From Dermatophagoides farinae (lineage: Eukaryota; Arthropoda; Arachnida; Sarcoptiformes; Pyroglyphidae), in NCBI RefSeq assembly GCF_024713945.1, contig NC_134679.1:5585001-5649000 (forward strand): a stretch of DNA of 64,000 nucleotides. Direction: 5' to 3'. Below the pieces are notes generated by a model. The model ran no database searches. It was given only the letters and a program-made list of their open reading frames with translations, and was not told the DNA's origin. A program made the position numbers and the translations under genes. The stretch's first letter is position 1. Each line of letters begins with the position of its first letter. Positions 28,642-58,840 of this stretch are shown here, in pieces.

Positions 28642-31600
28642 TTACACCTGAATTTGTTTGATGATCAATTCATGATGACATTGTAAACCGGGTATGATTA
28701 CGTTCGATGGTTTTAATTTTTCATATGCATCCTGTATTTTCATGGCACGACGTCGTCGATTTTCATAACGATTCGTTTTGATTAATAAAACCAGAATGGC
28801 AATAATACGATAGAATAGCATATTGAATATCAACATGATAATTGTCGATAGAAAATATGTTTCATGAAATTCATGTTCATTATCTTCCATTTTTAATTTA
28901 AGCATGATTTTTTGAACCTCTTTTTTGCGACAACGATCAAATCCATATTGTAATAATAAAATGGCTTCTAAACCAAATCTTGTTGGAGCAAAATTCGATA
29001 AAAATTGAAATATATAATGCAGACGACGAATTGGTGTGGCTATATTACTAAGTAATAATGATATAACTTGTACTGCCGGCATCGCAATGATTAATGCAAT
29101 AAAATCGCCCAATGTAAGTATAGCGATTAGATGACCAAGTGCTTGTGCGACTAATGCGTTTATTATGAAATATAATAACATCCACCAATACATTCCTGGT
29201 TGAATTGGTTCGAAAATATCGGTTATATATGCAAATATTATGATGGCGGGTATTAGCGGTATGATTTCGGTAAATAATTTCATCGTATAAAATACACCTG
29301 TGCTATACCAACCTATAAATTGGAAAAAAATAATTTTTAGTGAATAAATCAATTAATTCAATTATATCTTACCATTTCGATGTTCATTACGGAAAAAGAC
29401 AATTTCTTTGGAAAACATGATCGATGCTTGTAATAAAAATAGAAAAAATAACAATGAATTCACGAAAGCTGCATAAATGAATGAAGCTTTTAAATCGAAA
29501 TCTTCATCTTCTTTGTCCTGTGTTTGATTACAGGTATTATTGAAATCATCCAATAAGTCAACACAACCATCATAATAAATCATGTTGTGGTCAAAAACTA
29601 TATTAAATGCAGATCCAAAACCCATGTACAAGCAATACATGATACACAGAGTTTGCCACAAATATCCACGAACATAGAATGCATAACGTAGTATCAATAC
29701 CCAGACAGATTTTAATGAAAAACGATTTCGATTAGTCGGTATTCCATCCAATACAGGAACGGTTTCATTTAATAGAATATGATAATCATTTAAGATTCTC
29801 TCATTGGTCAAACAAACCAAATCCTGAATAAAAGGATCTTCATAACTGAGACAAGAATATTTGATCAACTCTTCAACTGGAAAAATTTCATCTTGATCCA
29901 TTCGGTCTGAAACTTTGGTCAAATGCTGACGTATATCAGATGGTGGACCTGAATAGACACACACTCCCCCTTTAGCTAGAACGTAAACCTGGTCAAACAT
30001 GGAAAACACTTCGGCTGTTGGCTGATGGATTGATGTGATGATGCAAATGTTGTGGTGGTGAGCCACTTGTCTCAAACATGACACGACAACTTGAGCTGAG
30101 CTTGAATCCAAACCACTTGTTGGTTCATCGATACAAATCAAGTTTGGCATCCGAATCGATGTGAGTTCCAGACCAAGCGCCAAGCGTTTCCTTTGGCCAC
30201 CTGAACAATTTTGCACATAAGTGTCTTTCGTATCAACCAGATCTAATTCTTTGAGAATTTTCATAGCGATTGCTTCATGATCCAAGTTTTCGTTTTCCAT
30301 AGCATTTTTCAACATTGATGCATAAATCAAACTCTGCTTGGCTGTCAAACCGGGTAGCAAATGGCCTGAAACTTCTTGCGTAAGATAACAAACACGTATG
30401 GGCGTAAATTTACTGAGGTAGAATTTAGTTGTATCGCTCAATCGTGTCTTTGATTTCCCGATTAAAATATTGAGCAGTGAAGTTTTGCCGGCTCCAGATG
30501 GTCCCATCAGAGCATTAAGGGTGCCAAAACGGAATTGACCATTCAAATTTTTCAGAATTTGTTTAGAATTTGGTCCTTCTTTTTCTACGCTTCGAATTTC
30601 GTAGATAGATTTTGTACCAAACAAAGTAAGCGATCGCCATGCAACAACAATCTTATGGCGAGCAAAATCTTCAAAACCAAGTTCATCTTCCTTTTTGATT
30701 CGAACGGTTTTAGATAAATCAATTGCTTCTTCTTTCTGGTTAGTTAGCTTTCCATAATCAATACATTTAATTGCATCAGAAATTGAAGCTTTGACAAATC
30801 TTTTTGGTCGAAAAAATCCACTGAAATGGTATACCATCAAAACGAATACAAGAAAACGAATGATGGCAATGTTGATGATCATGAAATATGAATCACTATA
30901 CACTGTATCTACATTAACTCCAAAATCCTCGAGTACGAATGAAATTGTCGTCTCATCATCGCAACGATCCAGTCCATACATCGTATACATTAGCCCATTG
31001 GAAACAGTCTTGAACGATAAAATTTCTGACATTCGTAAAAAAATTGAAGGTAAAGTTTTCATCTTATAAGGATTGAACATGAAACCAGTGAAGAACTGTT
31101 GACAAAGCACAATAATATAGGAAGATACGACCGATACTTCAACTTTACCAAGAAAGATCAAACATAAAATATAGCCGATGCTTTGCTGATAACAATTATT
31201 TAACCATGTAAAATATAAATAATGACCAAGTCGATTCCAATTCATTTGATAATTGTCAACGTATAGATGATCAACAGAGAAATATGCAACGAGACCAATA
31301 AAAACGGACATAATAGTCAATTGGAAAAAACGTACAACGATAAATGCCCAATAGAATGTACCAAGACCATACCATTCTGTAATTTCAAACAATGATCATT
31401 TTATCATTATCATGATTAGTTTTTAGGATAAACTTACGATTACGATGTTCATTTCGAAATACTTTTAATATGGGATCGAAGAACATGCTACTGATAGAAA
31501 CTATGCTCATACCGAATAGTATAATGAAAAACCATTGATTCATTTCATAATCATCAGCCAATGCTTCAGCGTATAGTTTATCACGACAGGTAACATTTCG

Positions 31601-32812
31601 AGCACTTTCATCCGAATCGAATGAATAACAAGTTTCAGCATGAGTCATTGTCGATTCAAAAAACGTTGTGACCAACATGATTACGAAAAAATAATATGGA
31701 AATTGCATTAAAAAGCTTTTATATTCGGCTATGAATGTTATTCTGAATATCCGATGAAATTGTAAGATTAAGTCTCCCCAACAGAAACGTTTACGTCCTT
31801 GTCTGATACCATTCTGTAAGAATTTTAAATCATCAACCAATGGATCCAATTGAGTATGTTGTTCAATCAAGGTTGAATCGGTTAATTTTCGAACATTTTT
31901 ACTTCCGATAGCTAGCGAAAAAATTTCTCTTAAAGTTATTCATTTAACTATTTAGATTTAATAATTCTAGTTCATACCTTCACAAGCGATATCCAGATAT
32001 TCTTCAATGGGTGGCTTCTCCGTGTCGAATTCATCGTCAATTTTTTGTTTCAAATTGTTACGCAAGTCGTTTGGTGGTCCTGAATAGATGCAAACACCTC
32101 CTTTGGCAAGAACAAATACTTTGTCGAATAAAGCTAATGTGTCTGAATTTGGTGTATGGATTGATACCAGAATGGTCAATCGGCTATTGTTGACTAATTT
32201 GCGAAGACATTGTGTGACCAATAAAGCAGCATTACTATCGAGACCGGTTGTTGGTTCATCGACGAACAAAAAAGTCGGCTTTTCCAATGACATCAATTCC
32301 TGAGCGATAGCAATACGTCGTTGTTCTCCGCCAGAACATTTCTCGAAATGATTATCCAATATGGTTTTATCGAGTAAAAGTTCATTCAACACAGAAAGTA
32401 TATGCTGATTCATTCGATTCCATTGGCTCATAGTATTCTTGAAACGAAATGCATAGTGAAGTATTTCTCGAACTGTCATTCGAGCGATGATGGTTTCGTG
32501 AACATGTTGCTCGACAAATCGAATAACTGGCGTTTGATTACGTTCTGCACGATTCAGATAAATCTCGGAGTCCGAAGTGATACCACTACGAAGTGTACCA
32601 TTCAAGCAGTTGAGCATTGTAGTTTTACCTGCTCCACTTGGTCCCAGAAATGCATTCATACTGCCATAAGTGACATGGCCATTCAAACGTTTCAGAATGG
32701 ATTTTTTTCCGCTGCCGAACCAGCCACTCACTTGATACGATAAATTTCGCCATGCCAATGAAATATTTTCGGCCATAGGTTCACAATTCAATGGTCCATT
32801 GTTTTCATTCAT
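28642..32812 (-). CDS. Full-size ABCG-type ABC transporter, array gene 1
   Basis: Exons 32812-31978, 31911-31438, 31376-29373, 29312-28642; all three introns (66, 61, 60 nt) are phase 1; 1327 residues. Order NBD1-TMD1-NBD2-TMD2. NBD1: Walker A GPSGAGKT 57-64, Q-loop Gln in FVEQH about 102, signature CSGGEQRR about 159-166, Walker B FLFVDEP about 181-187 with catalytic Glu, H-loop SIHTPN. NBD2: GPSGAGKT 728-735, CSGGQRKR about 827, LICIDEP about 849, SIHQPT about 887. Both sites therefore keep the residues needed for ATP hydrolysis. NBD-before-TMD order and motif style are ABCG. TMD1 spans exon 2 and early exon 3; TMD2 spans late exon 3 and exon 4, with a Cys- and N-glycosylation-rich loop (N-N-T-C-N-Q-T). 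Start: ATG 32812, because an in-frame TGA lies just upstream of the non-ATG frame extension. Likely a plasma-membrane exporter; substrate unknown. Most similar to genes 2 and 6. Confidence 0.9.
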
Positions 32813-33970: not shown

Positions 33971-36900
33971 TTACACCTGAATTTGTTTGATGATCAATTC
34001 ATGATGACATTGTAAACCGGGTATGATTACGTTTGATGGTTTTAATTTTTCATATGCATCCTGTATTTTCATGGCACGACGTCGTCGATTTTCATAACGA
34101 TTCGTTTTGATTAATAAAACCAGAATGGCAATAATACGATAGAATAGCATATTGAATATCAACATGATAATTGTCGATAGAAAATATGTTTCATGAAATT
34201 CATGTTCATTATCTTCCATTTTTAATTTAAGCAATATTTTTTGAACTTCTTTTTTCCCACAACGTTCGAATCCATATTGTAATAATAAAATGGCTTCTAA
34301 ACCAAATCGTGTTGGAGCGAAATACGATAAAAATTGAAATATATAATGCAGACGACGAACTGGTGTGGCTATATTACTAAGTAATAATGATATAACTTGT
34401 ACTGCCGGCATCGCAATGATTAATGCAATAAAATTACCCAATGTGAGTATAGCGATTAAATGACCAAGTGCTTGTGCGACTAATGCGTTTATTATTAAAT
34501 AAAATAACATCCACCAATACATTCCTGGTCGAATTGGTTCGAAAATATCATTTATATATGCAAGTATTATGATGGCGGGTATTAGCGGTATGATTTCGGT
34601 AAATAATTTCATCGTATAAAATACACCTGTGCTATACCAACCTATAAAATTGCAAAGAATAATTTTTAGTAAACAAATCAATTAATCGAGTTCACCTTAC
34701 CATTTTGATGTTCATTACGGAAAAAGATAATTTCTTTGGAAAACATGATCGATGCTTGTAATAAAAACAGAAAAAATAACAATGAATTCACGAAAGCTGC
34801 ATAAATGAATGAAGCTTTTAAATCGAAATCTTCATCATCTTTATCCTGTGTTTGATTACAAGTATTATTGAAATCATCCAATAAATCGACACAACCATCA
34901 TAATAAATCATGTTGTGGTCGAAAACAATATTCATAGCAAACCCAAAACCAATGTACAGACAATACATAATACACAGAATTTGCCACAAATATCCACGAA
35001 CATAAAATGCATAACGTAGTATCAATACCCAAACAGATTTTAATGAAAAACGATTTCGATTAGTCGGTATTCCATCCAATACAGGAACGGTTTCATTTAA
35101 TAAAATAAGATTATCATTCAAGATTCTCTCATTGGCCAAACGAACCAAATCCTGAACAGAAGGATCTTCATAGCTAAGACAGGAATACTTGATCAACTCT
35201 TCAACTGAAAAGATATCATCTTGATACATTCGGTCAGAAACTTTGTTCAAATGTTGACGCATATCGGATGGTGGACCCGAATAGACACACACGCCACCTT
35301 TAGCTAGAACATAAACCTGATCAAACATGGAAAACACTTCGACGGTTGGCTGATGTATCGATGTGATGATGCAAATGTTGTGGTGGTGAGCCACTTGTCG
35401 CAAACATGATATGACAACTTGAGCTGAACTTGAATCCAAACCACTTGTGGGTTCATCGATACAAATCAAGTTTGGCATCCGAACCGATGTGAGTTCCAGA
35501 CCCAGTGCCAAACGTTTCCGTTGACCACCGGAACAATTTTGCACATAAGTGTCTTTCGTATCGACCAGATCTAATTCTTTGAGAATTTTCATAGCGATTG
35601 CTTCATGATCCAAGTTTTCGTTTTCCATAGCATTTTTCAACATTGATGCATAAATCAAACTCTGCTTGGCTGTCAAACCGGGTAGCAAATGGCCTGAAAC
35701 TTCTTGCGTAAGATAACAAACACGTATGGGCGTGAATTTACTGAGGAAGAATTTAGTTGTATCGCTCAATCGTGTCTTTGATTTCCCGATTAAAATATTG
35801 AGCAGTGAAGTTTTGCCGGCTCCAGATGGTCCCATCAATGCATTAAGAGTTCCAAAACGGAATTGACCATTCAAATTTTTTAGAATTTGCTTCGAATCCT
35901 TTCTTTCATTTTGTACCGTTCGAATTTCATATATTGATTTTGTACCAAACAAAGTAAGCGATCGCCATGCAACAACAATCTTATGGCGAGCAAAATGTTC
36001 AAAACCAAGTTCATCTTCTTTTTTGATTCTAACAGTTTTAGATAAATCAACTGCTTCTTCTTTCTGGTCAGTTAGCTTTCCATAATCAATACATTTGATT
36101 ACATCGGAAATTGAAGCTTTGACAAATCTTTTTGATCGAAAGATTCCACTGAAATTGTATACCATCAAAACCAATACAAGTAAACGAATGCAGACACTGT
36201 TGATGAACATGAAATATGAATCACTATAAACTGCATTCACATTAATTCCAAAATCTTCGAGTACGAATGAAATTGTCGTCTCATCATCGCAACGATCAAG
36301 CCCATACATCGTATAAATTAGCCCATTGGGAATGGCCTTGAGCGATAAAGTTTCGGAAATTCGTAGAAAAATTGAAGGTAAAGTTTTCATCTTATAAGGA
36401 TTGAACATGAAACCAGTAAAAAATTGTTGAAAAAGTACAATAATATAGGCAGATACGACCGATACTTCAACTTTGCCAAGAAAGATCATACATAAAATAT
36501 AGCCGATGCTTTGATGAAAGCAATTATATAAATAACTAAAATAAAAATAATGACCAAATCGATTCCAATTCATTTGATAATTGTCAACATATAGATGATC
36601 AATAGAGAAATATGCGACTGTATTAATAAAAACGGTAATTATAGCCAATTGGATATTACGTAAAATCATAAATGGGAAAAAGAATGTACCAAGACCATAC
36701 CATTCTGTAATTTCAAATGATGATCATATTATTATTATTATGAATAGTTTTTAAAGTCGGACAAACTTACGATTACGATGTTCATTTCGAAATACTTTTA
36801 ATATATGATCGAAGGACATACTATTGATAGAAACTATGCTTACGCTGATGAGCATGGCGAAAAACCATTGATTCATTTCAAAATCATCAACCAATGCTTT

Positions 36901-38145
36901 TGCGTATAACTTATTACTACAGGTAATATTTTGAGCACTTTCATCCGATTTGAATGAATAACAAGTTTCAGCATGAGTCATTTTCGATTCAAAAAACGTT
37001 GTGACCAACATGATTACGAACAAAAAAAATGGAAATTGCATTAAAAAGCTTTTATATTCGGCTATGAATGTTATTCTGAATATCCGATGAAATTGTAAGA
37101 TTAAGTCTCCCCAACAGAAACGTTTACGTCCTTGTCTGATACCATTCTGTAAGAATTTCAAATCATCAACCAATGGATCCAATTGAGCATGTTGTTCAAT
37201 CAAGGTTGAATCGGTTAATTTTCGAACATTTTTACTTCCGATGGCTAACGAAAAGATTTTTCTTAAAGTTATTCATTTAACTATTTAGATTTAATAATTC
37301 TAGTTCATACCTTCACAAGCGATATCCAGATATTCTTCAATGGGGGGCTTCTCCGTGTCGAATTCATCGTTGATTTTTTGTTTCAAATTGTTACGCAAGT
37401 CATTTGGTGGTCCAGAATAGATGCAAACACCTCCTTTGGCAAGAACAAATACTTTGTCGAATAAGCTCATAATGTCTGAGTTGGGGGTGTGTATTGAAAC
37501 CAGAATAGTCAATCGATTATTACCAGCTAATTTTCGTAAACATTCCATAACAAGTAGAGCAGCATTACTATCAAGGCCGGTTGTTGGTTCATCGACGAAC
37601 AAAAAGGTCGGCTTTTCTAATGACATCAATTCCTGAGCGATAGCAATACGTCGTTGTTCTCCGCCAGAACATTTCTCGAAATGATTGTCCAATATGGTTT
37701 TATCGAGTAAAAGTTCATTCAACACAGAAAGTATATGTTGATTCATTTGATTCCATTGGCTCATTGGATTCTTGAAACGAAATGCATAGTGCAAGATTTC
37801 TCGAACGCTCATTCGAGCAATGATGGTTTCGTGAAAATGTTGCTCAACAAATCGAATAATGGGCGTTTGATTACGCTCCGCACGATTCAGAAAAATCTCG
37901 GAGTCCGAAGTGATACCACTATGAAGTGTACCATTCAAGCAGTTGAGCATTGTGGTTTTCCCGGCTCCACTTGGACCCAGAAACGCATTCATACTGCCAT
38001 AAGTGACATGGCCATTCAAACGTTTTAGAATGGATTTTTTTCCACTTCCGAACCAGCCACTCACTTCATACGATAAATTTCGCCATGCCAATGAAATATT
38101 CTCGGCCATAGGTTCACAATTCAATTTCAAATTGTTTTTATTCAT
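33971..38145 (-). CDS. Full-size ABCG-type ABC transporter, array gene 2
   Basis: Exons 38145-37311, 37244-36771, 36704-34701, 34641-33971; introns 66, 66 and 59 nt, all phase 1; 1327 residues, same exon lengths as gene 1. NBD1 has GPSGAGKT 57-64, CSGGEQRR 159-166, FLFVDEP 181-187 and His219; NBD2 has GPSGAGKT 728-735, CSGGQRKR 827-834, LICIDEP 849-855 and His887. NBDs are almost those of gene 1. TMD1 differs more, for example FFFPFMILRN at the start of exon 3. Specific marks are RTVQNERKDSKQ before NBD2, shared in close form with gene 6, and exon 4 nearly identical to gene 1. An in-frame TGA precedes ATG 38145. Likely a membrane exporter; substrate unknown. Confidence 0.9.
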
Positions 38146-38948: not shown

Positions 38949-41900
38949 TTAAACCTTAAACTGTTTGATTGTCATTTCATGATGACATTGTAAACCAGGT
39001 ATGATTACATTCACTGGTTTCAGTTTTTGATGTGAATCGGCTATTTGCATTGCCCGTTTACGACGATTTTCATAACGATTGGTTTTTGCCAATAATAATA
39101 ATAATGCAATCACACGATAGATTATTATGTTAAATATAAGCATAATAATCGTATAATAGAAAAATGTTCCATGAAATTCATGTTCATTTTCTTCCATTTT
39201 GAATTTCAACAAAATTTTCTGCACTTCTTTCCTACGACAACGATCAAATCCATATTGTAATAATAAAATGGCTTCAATTGTGAATCGAGTGGGCGCAAAA
39301 TTCGAAAGAAATTGAAATATATAATGTAGACGTCTAATCGGTGTGCCCATATTACTGATTAATAATGATATAACTTCAATGGCAGGTATCGATATGATTA
39401 ATGCAACAAATTTGCCTAACGATATTATAGCGACCAAATGTCCAAATGCCTGTGCAGCTAAAGCACCCATCAATGAATAGAACAATAGCCAATAAAACAT
39501 TCCAGGATGAATGGGTTCATAAATGTCAATCAGATATGTAAAGATTGTTAGCGCAGGTATCAATGGTAAAAATTCTATTAACATTTTCATAGAATAAAAT
39601 GCACCAGTACTATACCAGCCTATAAAATGAAAAAAATTTTAAATGGAAAAGAATTAAAAGAATCTGACATTATAAAACACACACCATTTTGATGTTCATT
39701 ACGAAAATAGACAATTTCCTTCGAGAACATGATTGACGTTTGTAATAAAACTATGAAAAACATCATTGATTGTCCGAAACAAATATAAATGAATGAAGCT
39801 TGAAGATCAAAATCTTCATCTTCTTTTTCTTGAGTTTGATTACAAGTATTATTGAGTTCATCTTCCATGTTTACACAGCCATCACGAAATATCATGTTTG
39901 TGTCGAAAATATAATAAATTGAAATACCAAATGATATATATAGGCAATACATTAAGACAAGAATTTGCCACAAATATCCACGAACATAAAATGCATAACG
40001 TAGTATCAACACCCAGACAGATTTTAATGAAAAACGATTTTGATTAGTCGGTATGCCATCCAATACAGGAACGGTTTCATTTAATAAAATAAGATTATCA
40101 TTCAAGATTCTCTCATTGGTCAAACGAACCAAATCCTGAACAGAAGGAACTTCATAGCTAAGACAGGAATACTTGATCAATTCTTCAACTGGAAAGATGT
40201 CATCTTGATCCATTCGGTCTGAAACTTTGGTCAAATGCTGACGTATATCAGATGGTGGACCCGAATAGACACACACACCACCTTTAGCTAGAACATAAAC
40301 CTGATCAAACATGGAAAACACTTCGGCGGTTGGCTGATGAATCGATGTGATGATGCAAATGTTGTGATGGTGAGCTACTTGTCGCAAACATGACACGACA
40401 ACTTGAGCTGAGCTTGAATCCAAACCACTTGTTGGTTCATCGATACAAATCAAGTTTGGCATCCGAATCGATGTGAGTTCCAGACCCAGTGCCAAACGTT
40501 TCCTTTGGCCACCTGAACAATTTTGCACATAAGTGTCTTTCGTATCGACCAGATCTAATTCTTTGAGAATTTTCATAGCGATTGCTTCATGATCCAAGTT
40601 TTTGTTTTCCATAGTATTTTTTAACATTGATGCATAAGTCAAACTCTGTTTGGCTGTCAAACCGGGTAATAAGTGACTGGAAACTTCTTGCTTAAGATGA
40701 CAAACTTTTATGGGAGTAAATTTACTGAGATAAAACACGGTCGAGTCGCTCAATCGTGTCTTTGATTTCCCGATTAAAATATTGAGCAGTGAAGTTTTGC
40801 CGGCTCCAGATGGTCCCATCAATGCATTAAGGGTGCCAAAACGGAATTGACCATTCAAATTTTTCAGAATTTGTTTAGAATTCGGTCCTTCTTTTTCTAC
40901 ACTTCGAATTTCGTAGATGGATTTTGTACCAAACAAAGTAAGCGATCGCCAAGCAACAACAATCTTATGGCGAGCAAAATCTTCAAAACCAAGTTCATCT
41001 TCCTTTTTAATTCGAACAGTTTTAGATAAATCAATTGCTTCTTCTTTCTGGTTAGTTAGCTTTCCATAATCAATACATTTGATTGCATCAGAAATTGAAG
41101 CTTTGACAAATCTTTTTGATCGAAAGATTCCACTGAAATGGTATATCATCAAAACGAATACAAGAAAACGAATGATGACAATGTTGATGATCATGAAATA
41201 TGAGTCACTATACACTGTATCCACATTAACTCCAAAATCATCGAGTACGAATGAAATTGTCGTCTCATCATCGCAACGATCCAGTCCATACATCGTATAC
41301 ATTAGCCCATTGGGAACAGTCTTGAACGAGAGAATTTCTGACATTTGTAGAAAAATGGAAGGGATATTTTTCATTTTATAAGGATTGAACATGTAACCAG
41401 TAAAGAATTGTTGACATGTTATAACAATGTATGAGGAAACAATTGAAACTTCGAATTGGCCAAGAAAGATTAAACATAAAAGATGACCAATGCTTTGTTG
41501 TTGAAAATTATTAAGCAAAACAAAGTAGAGAAAATTTCCAAAACGATTCCAATTTAATTGATTATTATCTACGTAAAGATGGTCAATAGAAAAATAACTG
41601 ATCATTCCGATAAAACCAGTCAATATAGTCAATTCGATGCAGCGCACAATAAGGAATGCCCAAAAAAATGTTCCAAGACTGTACCATTCTGTTTTTTTTT
41701 TGAATCAAAATGATTATTAAATTAAGAAAAAAATGGTTCAACATTTTTTTACTTACGATTTCGATGTTCATTACGAAAAACTTTAAGAATTGGATGAAAA
41801 AATAGACAACTCATACCAAGTACGCTTAAACTGATTAATACAATGTCAAACATCTGATGCATACGATAATCATCTGTTAGGGCTTCATCATACAATTTTT

Positions 41901-43130
41901 CACGACAAGTCATATTTAATGATAAATAATCATCTGATTCTAATGAATAACAAACATTTGCATGTGTCATATTCGTTTCATAAAACGATGCTATCACCGT
42001 GATAAGAAAAAAAAAGAATGGATATTGTATCAAAAAATTTTGATATTCAGCCACAAATGTGATTTTCATTAACCGATAGAATTGCAAAATAAAATCTACT
42101 AATGAAAATTTTTTTCGTCCTTGCCTTATGCCATTCTTTAAGAATTTTAAATCATCAACCAATGGATCCAATTGAGCATGTTGTTCAATCAAGGTTGAAT
42201 CGGTTAATTTTCGAACAATTTCACTTCCAATAGCTAATGAAAAGGTTTTTCTTAGAGTTATCCATTTATCTAGATTTAATGATTCTATTTCATACCTTCA
42301 CAAGCGATATCAAGATATTCTTCAATGGGTGGCTTCTCCGTGTCGAATTCATCGTCGATTTTTTGTTTCAAATTGTTACGCAAGTCATTTGGTGGTCCGG
42401 AATAGATGCAAACACCTCCTTTGGCAAGAACAAATACTTTGTCGAATAAGCTCATAATGTCTGAGTTGGGGGTATGTATTGAAACCAGAATAGTCAATCG
42501 ATTATTACCAGCTAATTTTCGTAAACATTCCATAACAAGTAGAGCAGCATTACTATCAAGGCCGGTTGTTGGTTCATCGACGAACAAAAAAGTCGGCTTT
42601 TCCAATGACATCAATTCCTGAGCGATGGCAATACGTCGTTGTTCTCCGCCAGAACATTTCTCGAAATGATTATCCAATATGGTTTTATCGAGTAAAAGTT
42701 CATTCAACACAGAAAGTATATGCTGATTCATTCGATTCCATTGGCTCATAGGATTCTTGAAACGAAATGCATAGTGAAGTATTTCTCTAACTGTCATTCG
42801 AGCAATGATGGTTTCATGAACATGTTGCTCAACAAATCGAATGACTGGCGTTTGATTACGTTCCTCACGATTCAGATAAATTTCGGAGTCCGAAGTAATA
42901 CCACTACGAAGTGTACCATTCAAGCAGTTGAGCATTGTGGTTTTACCAGCTCCACTTGGACCCAGAAACGCATTCATACTGCCATAAGTGACATGGCCAT
43001 TCAAACGTTTCAGAATGGATTTTTTTCCGCTGCCGAACCAGCCACTCACTTGATACGATAAATTTCGCCATGCCAATGAAATATTCTCGGCCATAGGTTC
43101 ACAATTCAATGGTCCATTGTTTTTATTCAT
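38949..43130 (-). CDS. Full-size ABCG-type ABC transporter, array gene 3
   Basis: Exons 43130-42296, 42233-41757, 41688-39685, 39619-38949; introns 62, 68 and 65 nt, phase 1; 1328 residues. NBD1 motifs sit at the same positions as in genes 1 and 2. NBD2 starts with GPSGAGKT at 729-736 and has local changes (CHLKQEVSSHLLPG in place of CYLTQEVSGHLLPG), keeping the Q-loop Gln. Membrane segments are clearly diverged: exon 2 loop YLSLNMTCREK has one extra residue, and the late exon 3 loop reads FDTNMIFRDGCVNMEDELNN. The C-terminus ends T-I-K-Q-F-K-V, a version found only here and in gene 6. The 3' part of exon 1, intron 1 and the 5' part of exon 2 look identical to gene 6 over 580 bp. The frame stays open to a GTG upstream, but ATG 43130 matches its paralogues. 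Confidence 0.9.
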
Positions 43131-44404: not shown

Positions 44405-47400
44405 TCAAATTTGAATTCTTCGAATAATCAGATCATTATGACATTGTAGACCAGGTATGAATACATTGGATGATTTAAGATTTCGATGATAATTGGCAAT
44501 ATTTTGTGCACGTTTTCGACGACATTCATATCGATTTGTTTTCATTATCAACAATAATAATGCCAATATACGATAGAAAAGGACGATAAATGTTAACATG
44601 ATAATCGTATTCATTAGAAATGATGAATGATGTTCATGTTCATCATTTTCCATTCCTAATAAGTATAAAATTTTCTGTACCTGTTTACGACGACAACGAT
44701 TGAATCCATATTGTAATAATGAAAATGCTTCAATACCGAAACGTGTTGGTGAAAAATTTGATAAAAATTGAAATAAATAATGTAAACGTCGAACTGGTGT
44801 TGCCATATTGCTGAACAATAATGCTACAGTCTGTATTGCTGGTATCGATATGATTAAGGCAATAAATTCACCTAATGTAAATATGGCAATCAAATGTCCA
44901 AGGGCTTGTGCAGCTAATGTGCCAAGAATTAGATAAAAAATTATTGGATAATAAATGTTCGGTAATATCGGTTCATATATATTGATAATATAACCATAAA
45001 TGAAAATGACCGGAATTATAGGTATTAGTTCTGTAAATATTTTCATGAAATAAAATGAACCAGTACTGTACCAACCTGTATACAAATGAATAATAAATTT
45101 AAATTATTATATATCTGATGATGAAATGAACATTATCACTTACCATTTCGTTGTTCATTGAAAAAGTAAACAATTTCCTTTGAAAACATAATTGAAGCTT
45201 GAAGTAGAACCAAAAATATAAATAGACCATATGACCAACAAATATATGTGAATGATGCTTGTAGATCAAAATCTTCATCATCTTTTTCTTGTGTTTGATT
45301 ACAGGTACTATTGAATTCATCTTCTAAGCTTACACAACCATCATGATAAATCATATTATGATCAAATATGATAGTTAGTGATATAGCAAAAAATAAATAT
45401 AGACCATACATCATACATATACTTTGCCATAGATAACCATGAATATAATGTATATAACGAAGTATTAATACACCAACGGATTTTAATGTAAAACGATTAT
45501 GATTTGTAGGTATACCATCCAATACGGGTGTAGTTTCATCAGATAAAGATGAATCTTTTGTTAGAATTGTTTCGCTTGATGAACGAGCCAACATTTTTAC
45601 GAATTCATTTTTATATCCGAAACAAGAATATTTGATCAACTCTTCAACTGGAAAGATATCATCTTGATCCATTCGGTCTGAAACTTTGGTCAAATGTTGA
45701 CGTATATCGGATGGTGGACCCGAATAGACACATACACCACCTTTAGCTAGAACATAAACCTGGTCAAACATGGAAAACACTTCGGCAGTTGGCTGATGGA
45801 TCGATGTGATGATGCAAATGTTGTGATGGTGAGCCACTTGTCGCAAACATGACATGACAACTTGAGCTGAACTTGAATCCAAACCACTTGTTGGTTCATC
45901 GATACAAATCAAGTTTGGCATACGCATCGATGTCAGTTCCAGAGCCAGTGCCAAACGTTTCCGTTGACCACCGGAACAATTTTGCACATAAGTGTCTTTT
46001 GTATCAGTCAGATCTAATTCTTTAAGAATTTTCATAGCGATTGCTTCATGATTCAATTTTTCTTTTTCCATGGCATTTTTCAACATTGATGCATAAATCA
46101 AACTCTGTTTGGCTGTCAAACCGGGTAGCAAATGGCCAGAAACTTCTTGTGTAAGATAACAAACACGTATGGGCGTAAATTTACTGAGAAAGAATTCGGT
46201 ATTATCGCTTAATCGAGTTTTAGACCGGCCGTTAAGAACATTTAAAAGTGAAGTTTTTCCGGCACCAGACGGCCCCATCAATGCATTAATGGTGCCAAAA
46301 TGGAATTGACCATTCAAATTTTTCAGAATTTGTTTAGAATTTGGTCCTTCTTTTTCTACACTTCGAATTTCGTAGATGGATTTAGTTCCAAACAAAGTAA
46401 GCGATCGCCAAGCAACAATAATTTTATGTCGAGAAAAATGTTCAAAACCAAGTTCATCTTCCTTTTTGATTCGAACAGTTTTGTGAAGATTTTCAATATT
46501 TTCATTCATGCTAGAACAATCTCCATAATCAATTGATTTGATTGCTTCGGAATTTTCAGATTTTTGAAATCTTTTTGATCGAAAGATTCCGCTAAAATGA
46601 TATACCATCAAAATGAATACAAGAAAACGAATGATGACAATGTTGATGATCATAAAATATGAATCTTCATATACGGTTTGTTCGTTAACACCAAAATCTT
46701 CAAGTACAAACGATACTTTTGTTTGATCAACTTTATCATCACATCTATCCAATCCATATATTGTATACATTAATCCATTTGGACATGTTTTAAATGATAA
46801 TAATTCTGAAATTTTTAGAAATATCGACGGCATATTCTTCATTCTATATGGATTAAACATATAACCGGTGAAAAATTGTTCACAGATAACCAATATATAT
46901 GATGTTAAAATGGCAACTTCAATTTTTTCTAAAAATATCAAACAAATTAAGTAGCCTAAACTTTGTTGATATAAATTATTGAGCCATATAAAATAGAAGA
47001 AATTTGCAAAACGATTCCAATTCATTTGATAATGATCAATATAAAGATGATCGATGGCAAAATATGCAACCAAACTGATAAGACAAGCAATTATAGTTAA
47101 TTCAATAAATCGTACAACAGTGAATGACCAATAGAAAGTACCGAGGCTATACCATTCTGTAAATTAAAAAAAAAAAGTTTAAAAATCAAATTCAATAATG
47201 AAATTTCAAAGTCAACGAATACTTACTATTACGATGTTCATTACGAAATACTTTGAGTATTGGATTGAAAAATAAGCTACTCATACACATTATACTTAAT
47301 GATACCAATGTCATATATAGCCATTGATTTATCCGATATTCATTGGTCAATGCTTCAGCATGTAATCTATCGCGACATGTTAAATTATTGAAATCACCAT

Positions 47401-48683
47401 CATCAGCTTCGAATGAATAACATGTTTCAGCATGTGTTATTTTTTGATCGAAAAATGTTGCAATAAAATTGATTATGAAGAAAAAAAATGGAAATTGCAT
47501 CAAGAAATTCCTGTATTCATCGATGAATGTTATTATAAACATTCGATATATTTGTAATAATAGATCACCAAATAGGAATTGTTTTCGTCGTTGTCGAATA
47601 CCATTGGACATGAATTTCAGATTATCAACTAATGGATCTAATTTTTCATGTTCTTCGTACAAAGTTGAATCAGCTAATTGACAAACATGATCATTTGCAA
47701 TGCCTAGAATTAGTGAAAGAAAAATGAAATTTTTTTTTTTTAAATGATACTAAAATTACAATCAAACCTTTACAAGCTAATTCCAAATATTCTTCAATCG
47801 GTGGCTTTTCAATGTTGAATTCGATATTAATTTTTTGTTTAAGATTATCACGCATATTTTCTGGTGGTCCAGAATAGATGCAAACGCCACCTTTTGCCAG
47901 AATAAACACTTTATCGAATAAAGTCATAATGTCTGAATTTGGTGTATGTATTGAAACCAGAATAGTCAATCGATTTTTATCAGCTAATTTTCGTAAACAT
48001 TGCATGACCAATGCTGAAGCATTACTATCGAGTCCGGTTGTTGGTTCATCGACGAACAAAAACGTTGGCTTTTCCAATGACATTAATTCCTGTGCGATGG
48101 CAATACGTCGTTGTTCACCACCGGAACATTTCTCAAAATGATTATCCAATATGGTTTTATCGAGTAAAAGTTCATTCAACACCGAAAGTATATGTTGATT
48201 CATTTGATTCCAATATTTTGCATCATTTTTGAAACGAAATGCATAATATAATATCTGACCAACACACATTTTACCGATAATATTTTCATGTATATGTTGT
48301 TCAACATAACGGATATTCGGCACATCATCATGTTGATTTAGATAAATTTCTGAATCAATTGTCATACCATTTGAATGTGTACCATTCAGACAGTTAAGCA
48401 TTGTTGTTTTACCGGCACCACTTGGACCAAGAAATGCATTCAAACTATGATAATTAAGATGTCCATTTAAGCGTTTCAGAATGGTTTTTCGTTCACCAAA
48501 ACCACCAACACTAGCAAACCAACCGACATTAACTTCATAGGATAGATTACGCCATGCTAATGAAATATTTTTTGCCAATCGTAATTGAAGATTTTTTTTG
48601 TCAACATTTTCTTCTTGTAATTCAAATACAAATGATGATAATTCACATTTAGAATGATTGTCATTTCTATTGAAATCATACAT
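44405..48683 (-). CDS. Full-size ABCG-type ABC transporter, array gene 4 (divergent)
   Basis: Exons 48683-47768, 47703-47227, 47156-45144, 45075-44405; introns 64, 70 and 68 nt, phase 1; 1358 residues, the longest of the six. The N-terminus is different (M-Y-D-F-N-R-N), and an insert V-N-V-G-W-F-A-S-V-G-G-F-G-E-R precedes NBD1. NBD1: GPSGAGKT 86-93, Q-loop YVEQH, CSGGEQRR, FLFVDEP. NBD2: GPSGAGKT near 759, CSGGQRKR, LICIDEP. A three-residue insertion follows GLDRCDD in TMD1. Membrane parts are well diverged from genes 1, 2, 3 and 6, while the NBD2 core remains very close. The start ATG 48683 lies directly after an in-frame ATC microsatellite in the transcript. Gene 5 is its nearest relative in NBD2 flanks (NVLNGRSKTRLSDNT). 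Substrate unknown. Confidence 0.88.
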
Positions 48684-49272: not shown

Positions 49273-52200
49273 TTATACTTGAATTCTTTTGACAATTAAT
49301 TCACTGTCACATTGTAAACCGGGTATAAAAACATTGGATGGTTCAATCAGATGTTTTTGATGAAAATCAGCAATTTTCAATGCACGTTTTCTGCGATCAT
49401 CAACATGATTACATTTGATTATCATCAATAATAATGATACTAAACGATAAAATAGTAAATTAAATATCAACATGATAAGTGTTTGTATAAGAAACGTAGT
49501 ATGATGTTCATGTTCATCATTTTCCATTTTCAATTGGAAAAGAATTTTCTGTACTTCTTTACGGCGACAACGATCGAATCCATATTGTAAGAGAAGCATA
49601 GCTTCAATGCCGAAACGTGTTGGTGCAAAAATCGATATAAATTGTAGCAAATAATGTAAACGTTTCACAGGTGTACCAAGATTACTGACCGCCAAAAATA
49701 TCGCCTCAACACCTGGTATTGAAATTACTAATGCCACAAATTCACCATATGTAACAATCGAAAGTAGATGACCAACAGATTGATAGGCAGCAGCGCCAAG
49801 AATTATATAGAATGCAATGGAAAAATATATTCCCGGCCGTACAGGTTCATAGATATCGATCAAAAGCGTATACAATAGAAAGATTGGAATCTGTGGTAAT
49901 AATTCTACCCACATTTTCATGAAATAAAATGCACCAGTACTATACCATCCTAATTTGTTTTAATATAACAAAAAAACATTTAAAAATGATTAGAAAAATT
50001 TCCACATTTCTTAAATGGTGATTTTCTTACCGTTTCTATGTTCATTACAAAAGAATACAATTTCTTTCGAAAACATTATGGCCGATTGAACCAATACAAG
50101 AAATAAAAACATTCCATAACTAAATGCAACATAAATGAATGATGCTTCTAGATGAAAATCTTCATCATCTTTCTCCTGTGTTTGATTACAAGTACTATTG
50201 AATTCATCTTCCAGATTTACACAACCATCGATGAATATCATATTATGATCAAATAAAATATTCATTGTTATTCCAAAACATAGATAAAGACCATACATTA
50301 GAGCAAGAATTGGCCATAAATAACCACGAACATAGAATACATATCGTATCATCAATATCCAAACAGATTTCATTGAGAAACGATATCTATTTGTTGGTAT
50401 ACCATCCATGACAGGGGTCGTTTCCTCTGATATGATTACATCTTGAGTCAACATTTTTTCATTTGAAGAGGTTACTAAATCCTGAACAGAAGGATCTTCA
50501 TAACTGAGACAAGAATACTTGATCAACTCTTCAACTGGAAAGATATCATCTTGATCCATTCGGTCTGAAACTTTGGTCAAATGCTGACGTATATCAGATG
50601 GTGGACCCGAATAGACACATACACCACCTTTAGCTAGGACATAAATCTGATCAAACATGGAAAACACTTCGGCGGTTGGCTGATGAATCGATGTGATGAT
50701 GCAAATGTTGTGATGGTGAGCCACTTGTCGCAAACATGACACGACAACTTGAGCTGAACTAGAATCCAAACCACTTGTTGGTTCATCAATACAAATCAAG
50801 TTAGGCATCCGAATCGATGTGAGTTCCAGACCAAGCGCCAAGCGTTTCCGTTGACCACCCGAACAATTTTGCACATAAGTGTCTTTCGTATCGACCAGAT
50901 CTAATTCTTTGAGAATTTTCATAGCGATCGCTTCATGGTCCAATTTTTCGTTTTCCATAGCATTTTTCAACATTGATGCATAAGTCAAACTCTGTTTGGC
51001 AGTCAAACCGGGTAGCAAATGGCCTGAAACTTCTTGCGTAAGATAACAAACACGTATGGGAGTAAATTTACTGAGGTAGAATTTGGTATTATCGCTTAAT
51101 CGAGTTTTAGACCGACCGTTAAGAACATTCAAAAGTGAAGTTTTTCCGGCACCAGATGGCCCCATTAATGCATTCATGGTGCCAAAATGGAATTGACCAT
51201 TCAAATTTTTCAGAATTTGTTTAGAATTTGGTCCTTCATTTTCTACACTTCGAATCTCGTAGATGGATTTAGTTCCAAACAAAGTAAGGGAACGCCAAGC
51301 AACAATAATTTTATTTCTAGAAAAATCATCGAATCCAATTTCATCTTCTTTTTTGATTCGAACAGCTTTGGATAAATCAATCATTTCATTTTTCTGATCG
51401 GATAAATTTCCATAATCAATAGTTTTGATCGAATCTTGATGAGATTTTGATGATTTAATAAAATTCTTCGGTCGATTAATACCACTAAAATGATAAACCA
51501 TCATAATGAATATCAGCGAACGAAAGATGACAATATTGATCATCATTTTATATGAATCACTATATACTGTATCGACATTAACACCAAAATCTTCAAGCAC
51601 GAATGACATTTTCTTTTCATCTTCACACCGGTCCAATCCATACATTGTATACATTAATCCATTAGGACCAGTTTTGAATGATAATAATTCAGACATACGT
51701 AAAAAAATTGATGGCATATTTTTCATCTTATAAGGATCAAACATATAACCGGTGAAAAATTGTTCACTAACAGCAAGCATATATGATGTTACGATTGATA
51801 CTTCAATTTTATCCAATAATAATACACAGACAAAATATCCAATACTTTGTTGATAAAGATTTGTAAGCCAAATAAAATAGACGTAATTCCCAAAACGATT
51901 CCAATTCATTTGATAATGATCAACATATAGGTGATCGATAATAAAATATGCTACTAAACCAATGAATCCAGCCATAATAGTTAATTCAATGAACCGTACA
52001 ATCATAAATGCCCAATAAAATGTACCAAGACTATACCATTCTGTGAAAAAAAAATAAAAATAAAAATCAGATTCATCAATAAAGAAATTTCAAACATGAT
52101 AAATACTCACGATTACGATGTTCATTACGAAAAACTTTGAGTATTGGATTAAAAAATAAACTACTCATACACAAGATAGCCAAAGCAGTTAGATTAAGCC

Positions 52201-53477
52201 AATACCATTGATTCATTTTATAATCATTTGTTAATGCTTCGGCATGTAATTTATCTCGACATGTAATATTGAATTCACTGTCATCAGCATCGAATGAATA
52301 ACATGTTTCAGCATGTGTCATATTTGGATCAAACAATAAGGTCATGATTCCAATTAAAAAGAAAAAGAATGGAAATTGCATTACGAAAGTTTTATATTCA
52401 GCCACGAATGTAATCTTGAATATTCGATATAATTGTAGCATGAGATCATCGATTGAAAACCATTTACGTCGTTGTTGTATACCATTGGATAAGAATAGCA
52501 AATCATCAACTAATGGCACAAGTTTTTCATGTTGTTCAATCAGTGTCGAATCAGCCAATTTACGTACGAATTTATTACTGATACCTTTTATTTATGAATT
52601 GAAAAAAAATTATTGTTTGATAATTTTATTCAAAATGCAAACCTTCACAAGCGATATCCAGATATTCTTCAATGGGTGGCTTTTCTGTGTCAAATTCGTC
52701 ATCAATTTTTTGTTTCAAATAGTTACGTAAATCGTTTGGTGGGCCTGAATAGATGCAAACACCACCTTTGGCCAAAATGAACACTTTATCGAATAAGCTC
52801 ATAATGTCTGAGTTGGGGGTATGTATTGAAACCAGAATAGTCAATCGGTTATTACCAGCTAATTTTCGTAAACATTCCATAACAAGTAGAGCAGCATTAC
52901 TATCAAGGCCGGTTGTTGGTTCATCGACGAACAAAAAAGTCGGCTTTTCCAATGACATCAATTCCTGAGCGATGGCAATACGTCGTTGTTCTCCGCCAGA
53001 ACATTTCTCGAAATGATTATCCAATATGGTTTTATCGAGTAAAAGTTCATTCAACACTGAAAGTATATGCTGATTCATTCGATTCCATTGGCTCATAGGA
53101 TTCTTGAAACGAAATGCATAGTGAAGTATTTCTCGAACTGTCATTCGAGCAATGATGGTTTCGTGAACATGTTGCTCGACAAATCGAATAATTGGCGTTT
53201 GATTACGTTCTGCACGATTCAGATAAATCTCGGAGTCCGAAGTGATACCACTACGAAGTGTACCATTCAAGCAGTTGAGCATTGTAGTTTTACCTGCTCC
53301 ACTTGGTCCCAGAAATGCATTCATACTGCCATAAGTGACATGGCCATTCAAACGTTTTAGAATGGATTTTTTTCCACTTCCGAACCAGCCACTCACTTCA
53401 TACGATAAATTTCGCCATGCCAATGAAATATTCTCGGCCATAGGTTCACAATTCAATTTCAAATTGTTTTTATTCAT
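49273..53477 (-). CDS. Full-size ABCG-type ABC transporter, array gene 5
   Basis: Exons 53477-52643, 52584-52111, 52040-50031, 49949-49273; introns 58, 70 and 81 nt, phase 1; 1331 residues. It is a mixture: exon 1 is close to gene 2 (L-K-L-N-C-E-P near the start), whereas exons 2-4 are divergent and resemble gene 4 in style. NBD1 motifs lie at the same positions as in gene 2; NBD2 GPSGAGKT is near 730, with CSGGQRKR and LICIDEP intact. A two-residue insertion (SKSHQDSIK) lies in the TMD1-NBD2 linker, and exon 4 has two extra residues near the end (FHQKHLIEPSN). Late exon 3 has an FDHNMIFIDGCVNLEDEFNS loop with conserved Cys and N-x-T. An in-frame TGA precedes the ATG. Substrate unknown. Confidence 0.9.
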
Positions 53478-54539: not shown

Positions 54540-54545
54540 TTTATT
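54540..54545 (-). promoter_or_regulatory. AATAAA polyadenylation signal, ABC gene 6
   Basis: AATAAA on the minus strand 65 nt past the stop. Confidence 0.5.
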
Positions 54546-54609
54546 TTTAATTGCTGTTTTTGTTGTTATATTACTAATTTATGGTTGCATAATAATGTTG
54601 GAAAAAAAA

Positions 54610-57600
54610 TTAAACCTTAAACTGTTTGATTGTCATTTCATGATGACATTGTAAACCCGGTATGATTACATTTACTGGTTTCAATTTTTGATGTGAATCG
54701 GCTATTCGCATTGCTCGTCTACGACGATTTTCATAACGATTCGTTTTGATTAATAAAACCAGAATGGCAATAATACGATAGAATAGCATATTGAATATTA
54801 ACATAATAATTGTCGATAGAAAATATGTTTCATGAAATTCATGTTCATTATCTTCCATTTTTAATTTAAGCAAAATTTTTTGAACTTCTTTTTTGCGACA
54901 ACGTTCGAATCCATATTGTAATAATAAAATGGCTTCTAAACCAAATCGTGTTGGAGCGAAATACGATAAAAATTGAAATATATAATGCAGACGGCGAACT
55001 GGTGTGGCTATATTACCAAGTAATAATGATATAACTTCTACTGCCGGCATCGCAATGATTAATGCAATAAAATTACCCAATGTGAGTATAGCGATTAGAT
55101 GACCAAGTGCTTGTGCGACTAATGCGTTTATTATTAAATAAAATAACATCCACCAATACATTCCTGGTCGAATTGGTTCGAAAATATCATTTATATATGC
55201 AAGTATTATGATGGCGGGTATTAGCGGTACGATTTCGGTAAATAATTTCATCGTATAAAATACACCTGTGCTATACCAACCTATAAAATTGCAAAGAATA
55301 ATTTTTAGTAAACAAATCAATTAATCGAGTTCACCTTACCATTTTGATGTTCATTACGGAAAAAGATAATTTCTTTGGAAAACATGATCGATGCTTGTAA
55401 TAAAAACAGAAAAAATAACATGTTATTCGTGAAAGCTGCATAAATGAATGAAGCTTTTAAATCGAAATCTTCATCATCTTTATCTTGTGTTTGATTGCAG
55501 GTATTATTGAAATCATCCAATAAGTCGACACAACCATCATAATAAATCATGTTGTGGTCAAAAACTATATTCAATGCAGATCCAAAACCCAAGTACAAGC
55601 AATACATGATACACAGAAGTTGCCACAAATAGCCACGAACATAAAATGCATAACGTAGTATCAATACCCAAACAGATTTTAATGAAAAACGATTTCGATT
55701 AGTTGGTATACCATCCAATACAGGAACGGTTTCATTTAATAAAATAAGATTATCATTCAAGATTCTCTCATTGGTCAAACGAACCAAATCCTGAACAGAA
55801 GGATCGTCATAGCTAAGACAGGAATACTTGATCAACTCTTCAACTGGAAAGATATCATCTTGATCCATTCGGTCAGAAACTTTGGTCAAATGTTGACGCA
55901 TATCGGATGGTGGACCCGAATAGACACACACGCCACCTTTAGCTAGAACATAAACCTGATCAAACATGGAAAACACTTCGGCGGTTGGCTGATGTATCGA
56001 TGTGATGATGCAAATGTTGTGGTGGTGAGCCACTTGTCGCAAACATGATATGACAACTTGAGCCGAGCTTGAATCCAAACCACTTGTTGGTTCATCGATA
56101 CAAATCAAGTTTGGCATCCGAACCGATGTGAGTTCCAGAGCCAACGCCAAACGTTTCCTTTGGCCACCGGAACAATTTTGCACATAAGTGTCTTTCGTAT
56201 CAGCCAGATCTAATTCTTTGAGAATTTTCATGGCGATCGCTTCGTGGTTCAAATTTTCATTTTCTGATGCATTTTTTAACATTGATGCATAAATCAGACT
56301 CTGCTTGGCTGTCAAACCGGGTAACAAATGGCCTGAAACTTCTTGTGTAAGATAACAAACACGTATGGGGGTAAATTTACTGAGGAAGAATTTAGTTGTA
56401 TCGCTCATTCGAGTTTTGGATTTTCCGATTAAAATATTTAGCAGTGAAGTTTTGCCGGCTCCAGATGGTCCCATCAATGCATTAAGGGTTCCAAAACGGA
56501 ATTGACCATTCAAATTTTTTAGAATTTGCTTCGAATCCTTTCTTTCATTTTGTATCGTTCGAATTTCATATATTGATTTTGTACCAAACAAAGTAAGCGA
56601 TCGCCATGCAACAACAATCTTATGGCGAGCAAAATGTTCAAAACCAAGTTCATCTTCTTTTTTGATTCTAACAGTTTTAGATAAATCAACTGCTTCTTCT
56701 TTCTGGTCAGTTAGCTTTCCATAATCAATACATTTGATTGCATCAGAAATTGAAGCTTTGACAAAATTTTTTGATCGAAAGATTGAACTGAAATGGTATA
56801 CCATCAAAACGAATACAAGAAGACGAATAATGAGAATGTTGATGATCATGAAATATGAATCACTATACACTGTATCCACATTAACTCCAAAATCTTCGAG
56901 TACGAATGAAATTGTCGTCTCATCATCGCAACGATCCAGTCCATACATTGTGTACATCAACCCATTGGAAACGGTCTTGAACGATAAAGTTTCGGAAATT
57001 CGTAGAAAAATTGAAGGTAAAGTTTTCATCTTATAAGGATTGAACATGAAACCCGTAAAAAATTGTTGACAAAGTACAATAATATATGAAGATACGACCG
57101 ATACTTCAACTTTACCAAGAAAGATCAAACATAAAATATAACCGATGCTTTGCTGATAGCAATTATTTAACCAAGTAAAATATAAATAATGACCAAATCG
57201 ATTCCAATTCATTTGATAATTGTCAACATATAGATGATCAACAGAGAAATATGCAACTGTGCCAATAAAAACGGACATAATAGTCAATTGGAAAAAACGT
57301 ACAACGATAAATGCCCAATAGAATGTACCAAGACCATACCATTCTGTAATTTCAAATGATGATCATTTTATTATTATTATGATTAGTTTTTAAAGTAGGA
57401 CAAACTTACGATTACGATGTTCATTTCGAAATACTTTTAATATGGGATCGAAGAACATACTACTGATAGAAACTATGCTCATTCCGAATAGTATAATGAA
57501 AAACCATTGATTCATTTCATAATCATCAGCCAATGCTTCAGCGTATAATTTATCACGACAGGTAACATTTCGAGCACTTTCATCCGATTCGAATGAATAA

Positions 57601-58840
57601 CAAGTTTCAGCATGAGTCATTTTCGATTCAAAAAACGTTGTGACCAACATGATTACTAGAAAATAATATAGAAATTGCATTAAAAAGCTTTTATATTCGG
57701 CTATGAATGATATTCTGAATATCCGATGAAATTGTAAGATTAGGTCTCCCCAACAGAAACGTTTGCGTCCTTGCCGGACACCATTCTTTAAGAATTTTAA
57801 ATCATCAACCAATGGATCCAATTGAGCATGTTGTTCAATCAAGGTTGAATCGGTTAATTTTCGAACAATTTCACTTCCAATAGCTAATGAAAAGGTTTTT
57901 CTTAGAGTTATCCATTTATCTAGATTTAATGATTCTATTTCATACCTTCACAAGCGATATCAAGATATTCTTCAATGGGTGGCTTCTCCGTGTCGAATTC
58001 ATCGTCGATTTTTTGTTTCAAATTGTTACGCAAGTCATTTGGTGGTCCGGAATAGATGCAAACACCTCCTTTGGCAAGAACAAATACTTTGTCGAATAAG
58101 CTCATAATGTCTGAGTTGGGGGTATGTATTGAAACCAGAATAGTCAATCGATTATTACCAGCTAATTTTCGTAAACATTCCATAACAAGTAGAGCAGCAT
58201 TACTATCAAGGCCGGTTGTTGGTTCATCGACGAACAAAAAAGTCGGCTTTTCCAATGACATCAATTCCTGAGCGATGGCAATACGTCGTTGTTCTCCGCC
58301 AGAACATTTCTCGAAATGATTATCCAATATGGTTTTATCGAGTAAAAGTTCATTCAACACTGAAAGTATATGCTGATTCATTCGATTCCATTGGCTCATA
58401 GGATTCTTGAAACGAAATGCATAGTGAAGTATTTCTCGAACTGTCATTCGAGCAATGATGGTTTCGTGAACATGTTGCTCGACAAATCGAATAATTGGCG
58501 TTTGATTACGTTCTGCACGATTCAGATAAATCTCGGAGTCCGAAGTGATACCACTACGAAGTGTACCATTCAAGCAGTTGAGCATTGTAGTTTTACCTGC
58601 TCCACTTGGACCCAGAAACGCATTCATACTGCCATAAGTGACATGGCCATTCAAACGTTTCAGAATGGATTTTTTTCCACTACCGAACCAACCACTCACT
58701 TCATACGATAAATTTCGCCATGCCAATGATATATTCTGGGTCGATGATGAACTATCGTCATTTCTATTTCGTAATTCAAATTCAATAGATTCAACAAATC
58801 CATCATTGGAATATTGGACATCATTATTTTTGTCGTCCAT
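54610..58840 (-). CDS. Full-size ABCG-type ABC transporter, array gene 6 (mosaic)
   Basis: Exons 58840-57946, 57883-57410, 57343-55340, 55280-54610; introns 62, 66 and 59 nt, phase 1; 1347 residues. The N-terminus (M-D-D-K-N-N-D-V-Q-Y) is unique and 20 residues longer than in genes 1, 2, 3 and 5. NBD1: GPSGAGKT 77-84; NBD2: GPSGAGKT about 748-755; signatures and Walker B are intact. The gene is a patchwork: the exon 1 to exon 2 junction equals gene 3, most of exon 3 and the 5' part of exon 4 follow gene 2 (RTIQNERKDSKQ), and the last 40 or so residues (IADSHQKLKPVNV to TIKQFKV) follow gene 3. It is the most upstream gene of the array in transcription order. Its 5' flank differs from all the spacers, so it probably has its own promoter. 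Substrate unknown. Confidence 0.9.

Follow-up and report, generated by a model that had tools for sequence, protein, structure and literature searches.

A 64,000-nucleotide stretch of the genome of the mite Dermatophagoides farinae (contig C3, positions 5585001-5649000; hereafter the window) contains six tandem genes for full-size ABCG-type transporters, in which two nucleotide-binding domains (NBDs) and two transmembrane domains (TMDs) alternate along one chain in the order NBD-TMD-NBD-TMD. Metazoans are reported to possess only half-size ABCG transporters (PMC3724490, in the portion available). We think it very likely that the six genes encode single-chain ABCG-type exporters that arose in the mite lineage by duplication of a half-size gene, fusion of the two copies and multiplication of the product, and that this history explains the observations as a whole. 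The evidence comes from the window and from searches of the whole genome (62.44 Mb, 22 contigs).

Exons were located as long open frames and then connected at canonical splice sites. All six genes share one orientation on the minus strand, with 589–1274 bp between neighbors, and the rebuilt models run from 58840 to 28642, exactly the interval assigned to them in a preliminary description of the window. Each gene has four exons, three introns of 58–81 bp (all GT-AG and all phase 1) and no internal stop codon. The domain order and the range of product lengths (1327–1358 residues) given in that description were reproduced for every gene. The models, numbered by window position, are as follows; the fusion exon of each is its third, which takes in the closing part of TMD1, a linker, NBD2 and the opening part of TMD2.

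Gene A, 54610..58840, minus strand: full-size ABCG, 1347 residues; exons 58840-57946, 57883-57410, 57343-55340 and 55280-54610 (splice reconstruction).
Fusion exon of A, 55340..57343, minus strand: open frame.
Gene B, 49273..53477, minus strand: full-size ABCG, 1331 residues; exons 53477-52643, 52584-52111, 52040-50031 and 49949-49273 (splice reconstruction).
Fusion exon of B, 50031..52040, minus strand: open frame.
Gene C, 44405..48683, minus strand: full-size ABCG, 1358 residues, with the most divergent NBD1; exons 48683-47768, 47703-47227, 47156-45144 and 45075-44405 (splice reconstruction).
Fusion exon of C, 45144..47156, minus strand: open frame.
Gene D, 38949..43130, minus strand: full-size ABCG, 1328 residues; exons 43130-42296, 42233-41757, 41688-39685 and 39619-38949 (splice reconstruction).
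Fusion exon of D, 39685..41688, minus strand: open frame.
Gene E, 33971..38145, minus strand: full-size ABCG, 1327 residues; exons 38145-37311, 37244-36771, 36704-34701 and 34641-33971 (splice reconstruction).
Fusion exon of E, 34701..36704, minus strand: open frame.
Gene F, 28642..32812, minus strand: full-size ABCG, 1327 residues; exons 32812-31978, 31911-31438, 31376-29373 and 29312-28642 (splice reconstruction, Pfam and PDB sequence search).
Fusion exon of F, 29373..31376, minus strand: open frame.

The fusion exon is the critical feature of these models. It is 2004–2013 bp long and, as first described, holds 667–670 whole codons without a stop in all six genes. Because this exon stays open from TMD1 through NBD2 into TMD2, the fusion does not depend on a splice guess. 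Gene F, the one array gene run through Pfam, gave two ABC_tran and two ABC2_membrane stretches, with both families above their curated cut-offs. For genes F and C, simple hydropathy scanning indicated five or six membrane helices per TMD, plus one weak segment within NBD1 of gene C.

Half-size ABCGs are established to dimerize, and a full-size chain might similarly act as a dimer; alternatively, posttranslational cleavage or alternative transcripts might yield separate halves that pair across genes. The hexamers AATAAA or ATTAAA do occur within the fusion exon of all six genes, and in B, D and F they lie upstream of or near NBD2. However, such A+T-rich words are expected by chance at the G+C content of the window (27–34%), and neither a stop nor a splice break separates TMD1 from NBD2 in any of the six genes or in 17 of 18 other loci described below. 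We regard dimers or separated halves as quite unlikely. Most likely, the two halves pair within one chain to give an ATP-driven exporter.

The six copies share 71.1–92.5% protein identity, and none of the five segments compared in any of the 15 gene pairs has a synonymous divergence (dS) below 0.09. Because of this divergence at both levels, the copies are distinct genes, and assembly duplicates or haplotype copies were ruled out. The N terminus of gene A differs from those of B, D, E and F.

When the two halves of gene F (N and C) were used as separate queries against the genome, paired matches on one strand were found at no fewer than 24 places beyond the array, on contigs C3, C4, C6, C7, C8 and C9, which brings the family to about 30 places. 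These counts are lower bounds because scoring covers the best candidates only. The preliminary description had proposed a local expansion; the array bears this out, but the wording is too narrow for a family found at 24 additional places spread over six contigs. The DNA of 18 of these places was examined, and in 17 a single frame connects TMD1 to NBD2. The remaining six (C3:813k, C4:4261k, C6:4505k, C8:2768k, C9:2008k and C9:2029k) are known from their matches alone; the N-half match is partial at C6:4505k and C9:2029k, and the weakest place is C3:813k (33% for the N-half, 40% for the C-half). The exception to the one-frame join is locus L064 (C9:2032830-2037497), where the sequence examined stops just before the C-half match. 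There, the N-half is followed by a second TMD1-like stretch ahead of the C-half match, so that two TMD1-like copies are present; the locus is possibly a rearranged or decaying copy. Pseudogenes may be included among the approximately 30 places. No stray mite contigs turned up when prokaryote genomes were scanned.

The two halves of the family share two discrete characters. The first is an intron. In all six window genes, TMD1 and TMD2 are each interrupted at the same codon by a phase-1 intron that immediately follows EHxN and precedes WY. A pattern search over the 18 further full-size loci examined at the DNA level recovered the TMD1 site in 8 and the TMD2 site in 5. Only C3:3473669 and C3:808831 were shown to lack the intron in TMD1; in the other 8 loci, the pattern matched the TMD1 site neither with nor without an intron. 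C9:823011 was considered as a loss of intron 2 and then dropped, as the alignment suggests that the intron is read through in its 1163-residue frame. Eight ordinary mite half-size ABCGs in which the motif was read are uninterrupted at this codon (L009, C4:5667040, C7:1058220, C9:726377, C9:2634846, C9:955915, C5:5196542 and C3:4357904). The codon is also unbroken in the half-size gene C6:2845358, where an exon starts a few residues upstream. The second character is an insertion of two residues after EL(T/M), found in all 24 N-half and all 21 C-half NBDs. It is missing from both NBD2s of the fungal PDR transporters, from ABCG1 and ABCG8, and from the ordinary half-size ABCGs that cover the site (two half-size rows do not).

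Trees were built separately for the two domain types. The NBD tree comprised 57 rows: 21 N-halves, 19 C-halves, 10 half-size ABCGs from the same genome, ABCG1, ABCG8, three fungal PDR NBDs (one NBD1 and two NBD2) and two ABCH rows as the outgroup, with no ABCA row. Six of the 63 rows assembled were left out (both halves of D and E, which are near-copies, one gappy half-size row and one row from C9:2032830). The TMD tree had 38 rows, the N-halves of D and E and the C-half of E having been left out beforehand. In the NBD tree, the N-halves form one clade (support 99/98, 21 rows) and the C-halves another (100/99, 19 rows). Together with one odd half-size gene, they make up a clade (100/100) that leaves out the fungal PDR domains, ABCG1, ABCG8 and nine ordinary mite half-size ABCGs. 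The TMD tree likewise recovered the N-halves (100/99, 21 rows) and the C-halves (100/98, 7 rows), and united the two (85/94). The phylogeny of both NBDs against ABCG, ABCH and fungal PDR domains suggested in the preliminary description therefore joins N with C and sets them apart from PDR, plant PDR lying outside the comparison. Its proposal that an animal has evolved a full-size ABCG family independently is upheld to the extent that the N- and C-halves are mutual nearest relatives among the rows and grouping with PDR is rejected.

Membership in ABCH was a candidate that we rejected. The ABCH outgroup splits off from the remainder of the NBD tree at 100/100. In a search of the PDB, the C-half scored 158 bits against ABCG1, 124 against PDR and 59 against chain 8yzp, which we take to be a beetle ABCH despite its listed name, "ABC transporter G family member 23-like". 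The mite also has its own ABCH-like match to 8yzp elsewhere in the genome.

Descent from the ancient PDR lineage of full-size transporters shared by fungi, plants and protists, either retained by the mite or acquired horizontally, would account for the identical domain order. The PDB search with the N-half also lends it something, since the top summed score belongs to CDR1 (123.6 bits, against 112.2 for ABCG1, with more than one domain summed). Per domain, however, the N-half is about equally near the two, with ABCG1 ahead of CDR1 NBD2 by a small margin (97.0 versus 92.7 bits), and for the C-half ABCG1 is clearly first. The approximately unbiased (AU) test rejected a grouping of the C-halves with PDR NBD2 (p 0.009) and of the N-halves with PDR NBD1 (p 0.00015), the latter value being less safe than the figure implies because the lone PDR NBD1 row sits on a very long branch (2.76, flagged by the tree tool as joined to another long one). 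At E ≤ 0.001, a search run without a positive control gave none of the PDR-specific Pfam domains, presumably PDR_CDR, PDR_assoc and ABC_trans_N, for either gene F or its paralog L046, which has a single frame of 1190 residues (L046:187-3756). L046 scored higher with TIGR00955 (297 bits) than with the PDR model TIGR00956 (236.5 bits), both being below their cut-offs (736 and 1959). An intact NBD1 (see below) and an intron and insertion common to both halves also speak against this origin. We consider a PDR ancestry, vertical or horizontal, highly improbable; on the evidence at hand, the family appears independent of that line.

A different history would be the fusion of two dissimilar half-size genes, whose products were later made alike by convergence or gene conversion. 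The NBDs do differ in motif detail between halves (CSGGEQ in N versus CSGG[QE]RKR in C, and SIHTP versus SIHQP), and one half-size gene is placed beside the N-halves. Against this stand the union of N and C in both trees and the sharing by the halves of intron place, intron phase and an insertion that ordinary half-size ABCGs lack. Such a hetero-fusion seems unlikely to us. The shared clade, intron and insertion therefore indicate that a half-transporter gene was duplicated, fused with its own copy and then multiplied.

Several observations weigh against the proposed history and mode of action, in addition to the summed N-half score and the long PDR branch noted above. The half-size gene that joins the N-halves, L071 (C5:5256445-5262000; gene C5:5257000-5262000, minus strand), has the family intron place and phase and the insertion, but its Walker A, signature, Walker B and H motifs are degenerate. 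It groups with the N-halves in the NBD tree (96/84) and falls outside N plus C in the TMD tree. Its branch is very long, and a union of N and C without it was not rejected (p 0.168). This gene may be what is left of the gene as it was before fusion, or else a full-size member now reduced to one half. If it truly belongs with the N-halves, then either the halves diverged before fusion or the gene is a full-size gene minus one half. The union of N and C in the TMD tree has support of just 85/94, and five of its seven C-half rows are window genes. As to scope, the trees are confined to the sequences named, and plant and protist full-size ABCGs and other mite or arthropod genomes lie outside them. 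Two C-half NBDs depart from the exact SGG signature. Finally, the full-length transcripts and proteins of the array are predictions from genomic DNA.

The simplest history compatible with these data would begin with a half-size ABCG gene of the mite lineage that already carried the intron between EHxN and WY and the EL(T/M) insertion. This gene would have duplicated, as the common ancestry, intron and insertion of the halves suggest. The two copies would have fused head to tail into one NBD-TMD-NBD-TMD gene, which then multiplied to its approximately 30 places, including the six in the window array. By analogy with the ABCG fold, the chain would fold on itself, with NBD1 and NBD2 closing on two ATP molecules and TMD1 and TMD2 forming one outward-opening path, such that a single chain would perform the task of other animal ABCG dimers.

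All 24 N-half and all 21 C-half NBDs have the Walker A, Walker B and H-switch motifs; the SGG signature occurs in every N-half NBD (24 of 24) and in 19 of 21 C-half NBDs. By the same criteria, Walker A, Walker B and H are not recognized in CDR1 NBD1, nor is the SGG signature in either PDR NBD2. Both composite ATP sites of the mite proteins thus look intact and able to work. Because the motifs are intact in both NBDs, both sites probably hydrolyze ATP, whereas fungal PDR pumps have one weak site. The cargo expected of an ABCG is a lipid or a hydrophobic small molecule, and our guess is that the mite proteins probably carry lipids or other hydrophobic small molecules.

Divergence within the array is uneven along the genes. 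We compared dS and the ratio of nonsynonymous to synonymous divergence (dN/dS) over five segments of each gene pair, a comparison that involves no formal test of conversion or selection. Among A, B, D, E and F (10 pairs), dS in NBD1 is 0.09–0.35; in 7 of these pairs, dS in TMD2 is 0.84–1.48 and at least three times the NBD1 value. For A and B, dS is 0.11 in NBD1, 1.15 in TMD1, 0.48 in NBD2 and 1.48 in TMD2. The three pairs among A, E and F show the reverse, with TMD2 at 0.11–0.14 and NBD1 at 0.16–0.35. NBD1 of gene C is set apart (dS 0.73–0.86). The first intron is identical in A and D, and the third is identical in A and E. Because protein constraint alone cannot give low dS, segments of the array genes differ in history. 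Most simply, this pattern suggests sequence exchange between array copies, often covering the NBDs. Comparisons that do not involve TMD1 of E gave dN/dS of 0.03–0.27. For TMD1 of E (window 36704-34701), the ratio is 0.69 against A, 0.57 against F and 0.20–0.30 against B, C and D, which may reflect either relaxed constraint or change favored by selection.

These patterns would fit a shared motor with varied substrate paths, in which NBDs are exchanged between copies while TMDs keep old differences. A more tentative extension, which we find possible yet somewhat doubtful, is that, following a single fusion in the mite lineage, full-size genes (about 30 places) came to predominate among the ABCGs of this animal and that arrays serve as a modular pump kit, with conversion equalizing the motors, selection driving the membrane halves apart and cargos varying accordingly.

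A gamma-glutamyltranspeptidase-like gene (window 25965-28382, plus strand; single open frame; PF01019, 119.5 bits) is convergent with the array and lies 259 bp from the stop codon of gene F. On the other side, a long open frame at 62049-63311 (minus strand) ends in tracts rich in N, H, Q and S and gave no Pfam match. Elsewhere in the genome, two adjacent, divergent genes on opposite strands (C4:4170433-4171937) match the group 5/21 mite allergen family PF11642 (E 2.6e-53), which to our knowledge is confined to astigmatan mites. The cuticle domain Chitin_bind_4 (PF00379), typical of arthropods, has 24 matches. Both families, along with the 8yzp match, point to a mite genome, most likely an astigmatan one.

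We found no description of a full-size ABCG family in mites, and no already described full-size animal family, in the open-access literature; subscription papers, preprints and database annotations were outside this search. Full-size mite ABCGs go unmentioned in the available portions of PMC8290562, PMC7738191, PMC5467014, PMC12364353, PMC6806590, PMC8175442 and PMC7591027. Predicted proteins of the same kind may well already be in public databases, unremarked. As far as the accessible text of each goes, PMC4247197 and PMC6471920 describe ABCGs as half-size "in most metazoan species", and PMC4649718 counts Metazoa among the groups that lost full-size ABCGs. In its accessible part, PMC4247197 also mentions "ABCG full transporters" of oyster and shrimp in passing, citing a fungal PDR review among other sources; this mention is unconfirmed and may be an error. 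Ancient full-size ABCGs are themselves argued in PMC4649718, as far as its available portion goes, to stem from homofusion, the same kind of event that we infer for the mite family.

The mite family is a known architecture reached again in animals, where it was said not to exist. As such, it offers a natural experiment on what is gained by joining two ABCG halves. Joining could bring fixed pairing, asymmetric halves and separate evolution of the membrane halves, here with both ATP sites apparently working. For annotation, ABCG counts that presume half-size genes may split or misname full-size genes in mite genomes. Mange and dust-mite species are among the mites concerned, and efflux pumps in these animals are of practical interest.

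Compared with known transporters, the array family has the ABCG order, with NBD ahead of TMD and ABC_tran with ABC2_membrane (gene F), and its NBDs are closer to ABCG than to ABCH by both bit score and tree. It departs from the half-size form of animal ABCGs in that both halves lie on one frame-continuous chain. With fungal PDR transporters (CDR1 and PDB entry 7p03, which we take to be Pdr5) and plant full-size ABCGs, it shares the NBD-TMD-NBD-TMD chain and the ABCG fold family. Fungal PDR halves are nevertheless not the nearest rows to the mite halves, and the mite ATP sites look intact in both NBDs, whereas motifs fail in CDR1 NBD1 and the signature in PDR NBD2s. Among solved structures, animal half-size ABCG1 scores best with the C-half and, when domains are scored singly, also with the N-half; ABCG1 and the ordinary mite genes (L009 and its kin) have an EHxNxWY-type membrane motif in common with the array. 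These ordinary genes differ in being half-size, in lacking the intron at that codon and, where the site is covered, in lacking the insertion. Arthropod ABCH proteins, which are typical of arthropods and also have the NBD-TMD order, form a separate branch, represented in the mite by the 8yzp match at C4:4.04 Mb (L012, 226 bits). A parallel for the expansion itself is in Tetranychus urticae, in which ABCG tandem arrays are likewise a lineage-specific tandem expansion in a mite; its 23 ABCGs, as described in the available portion of PMC3724490, have the usual NBD-then-TMD order, unlike the full-size family of D. farinae.

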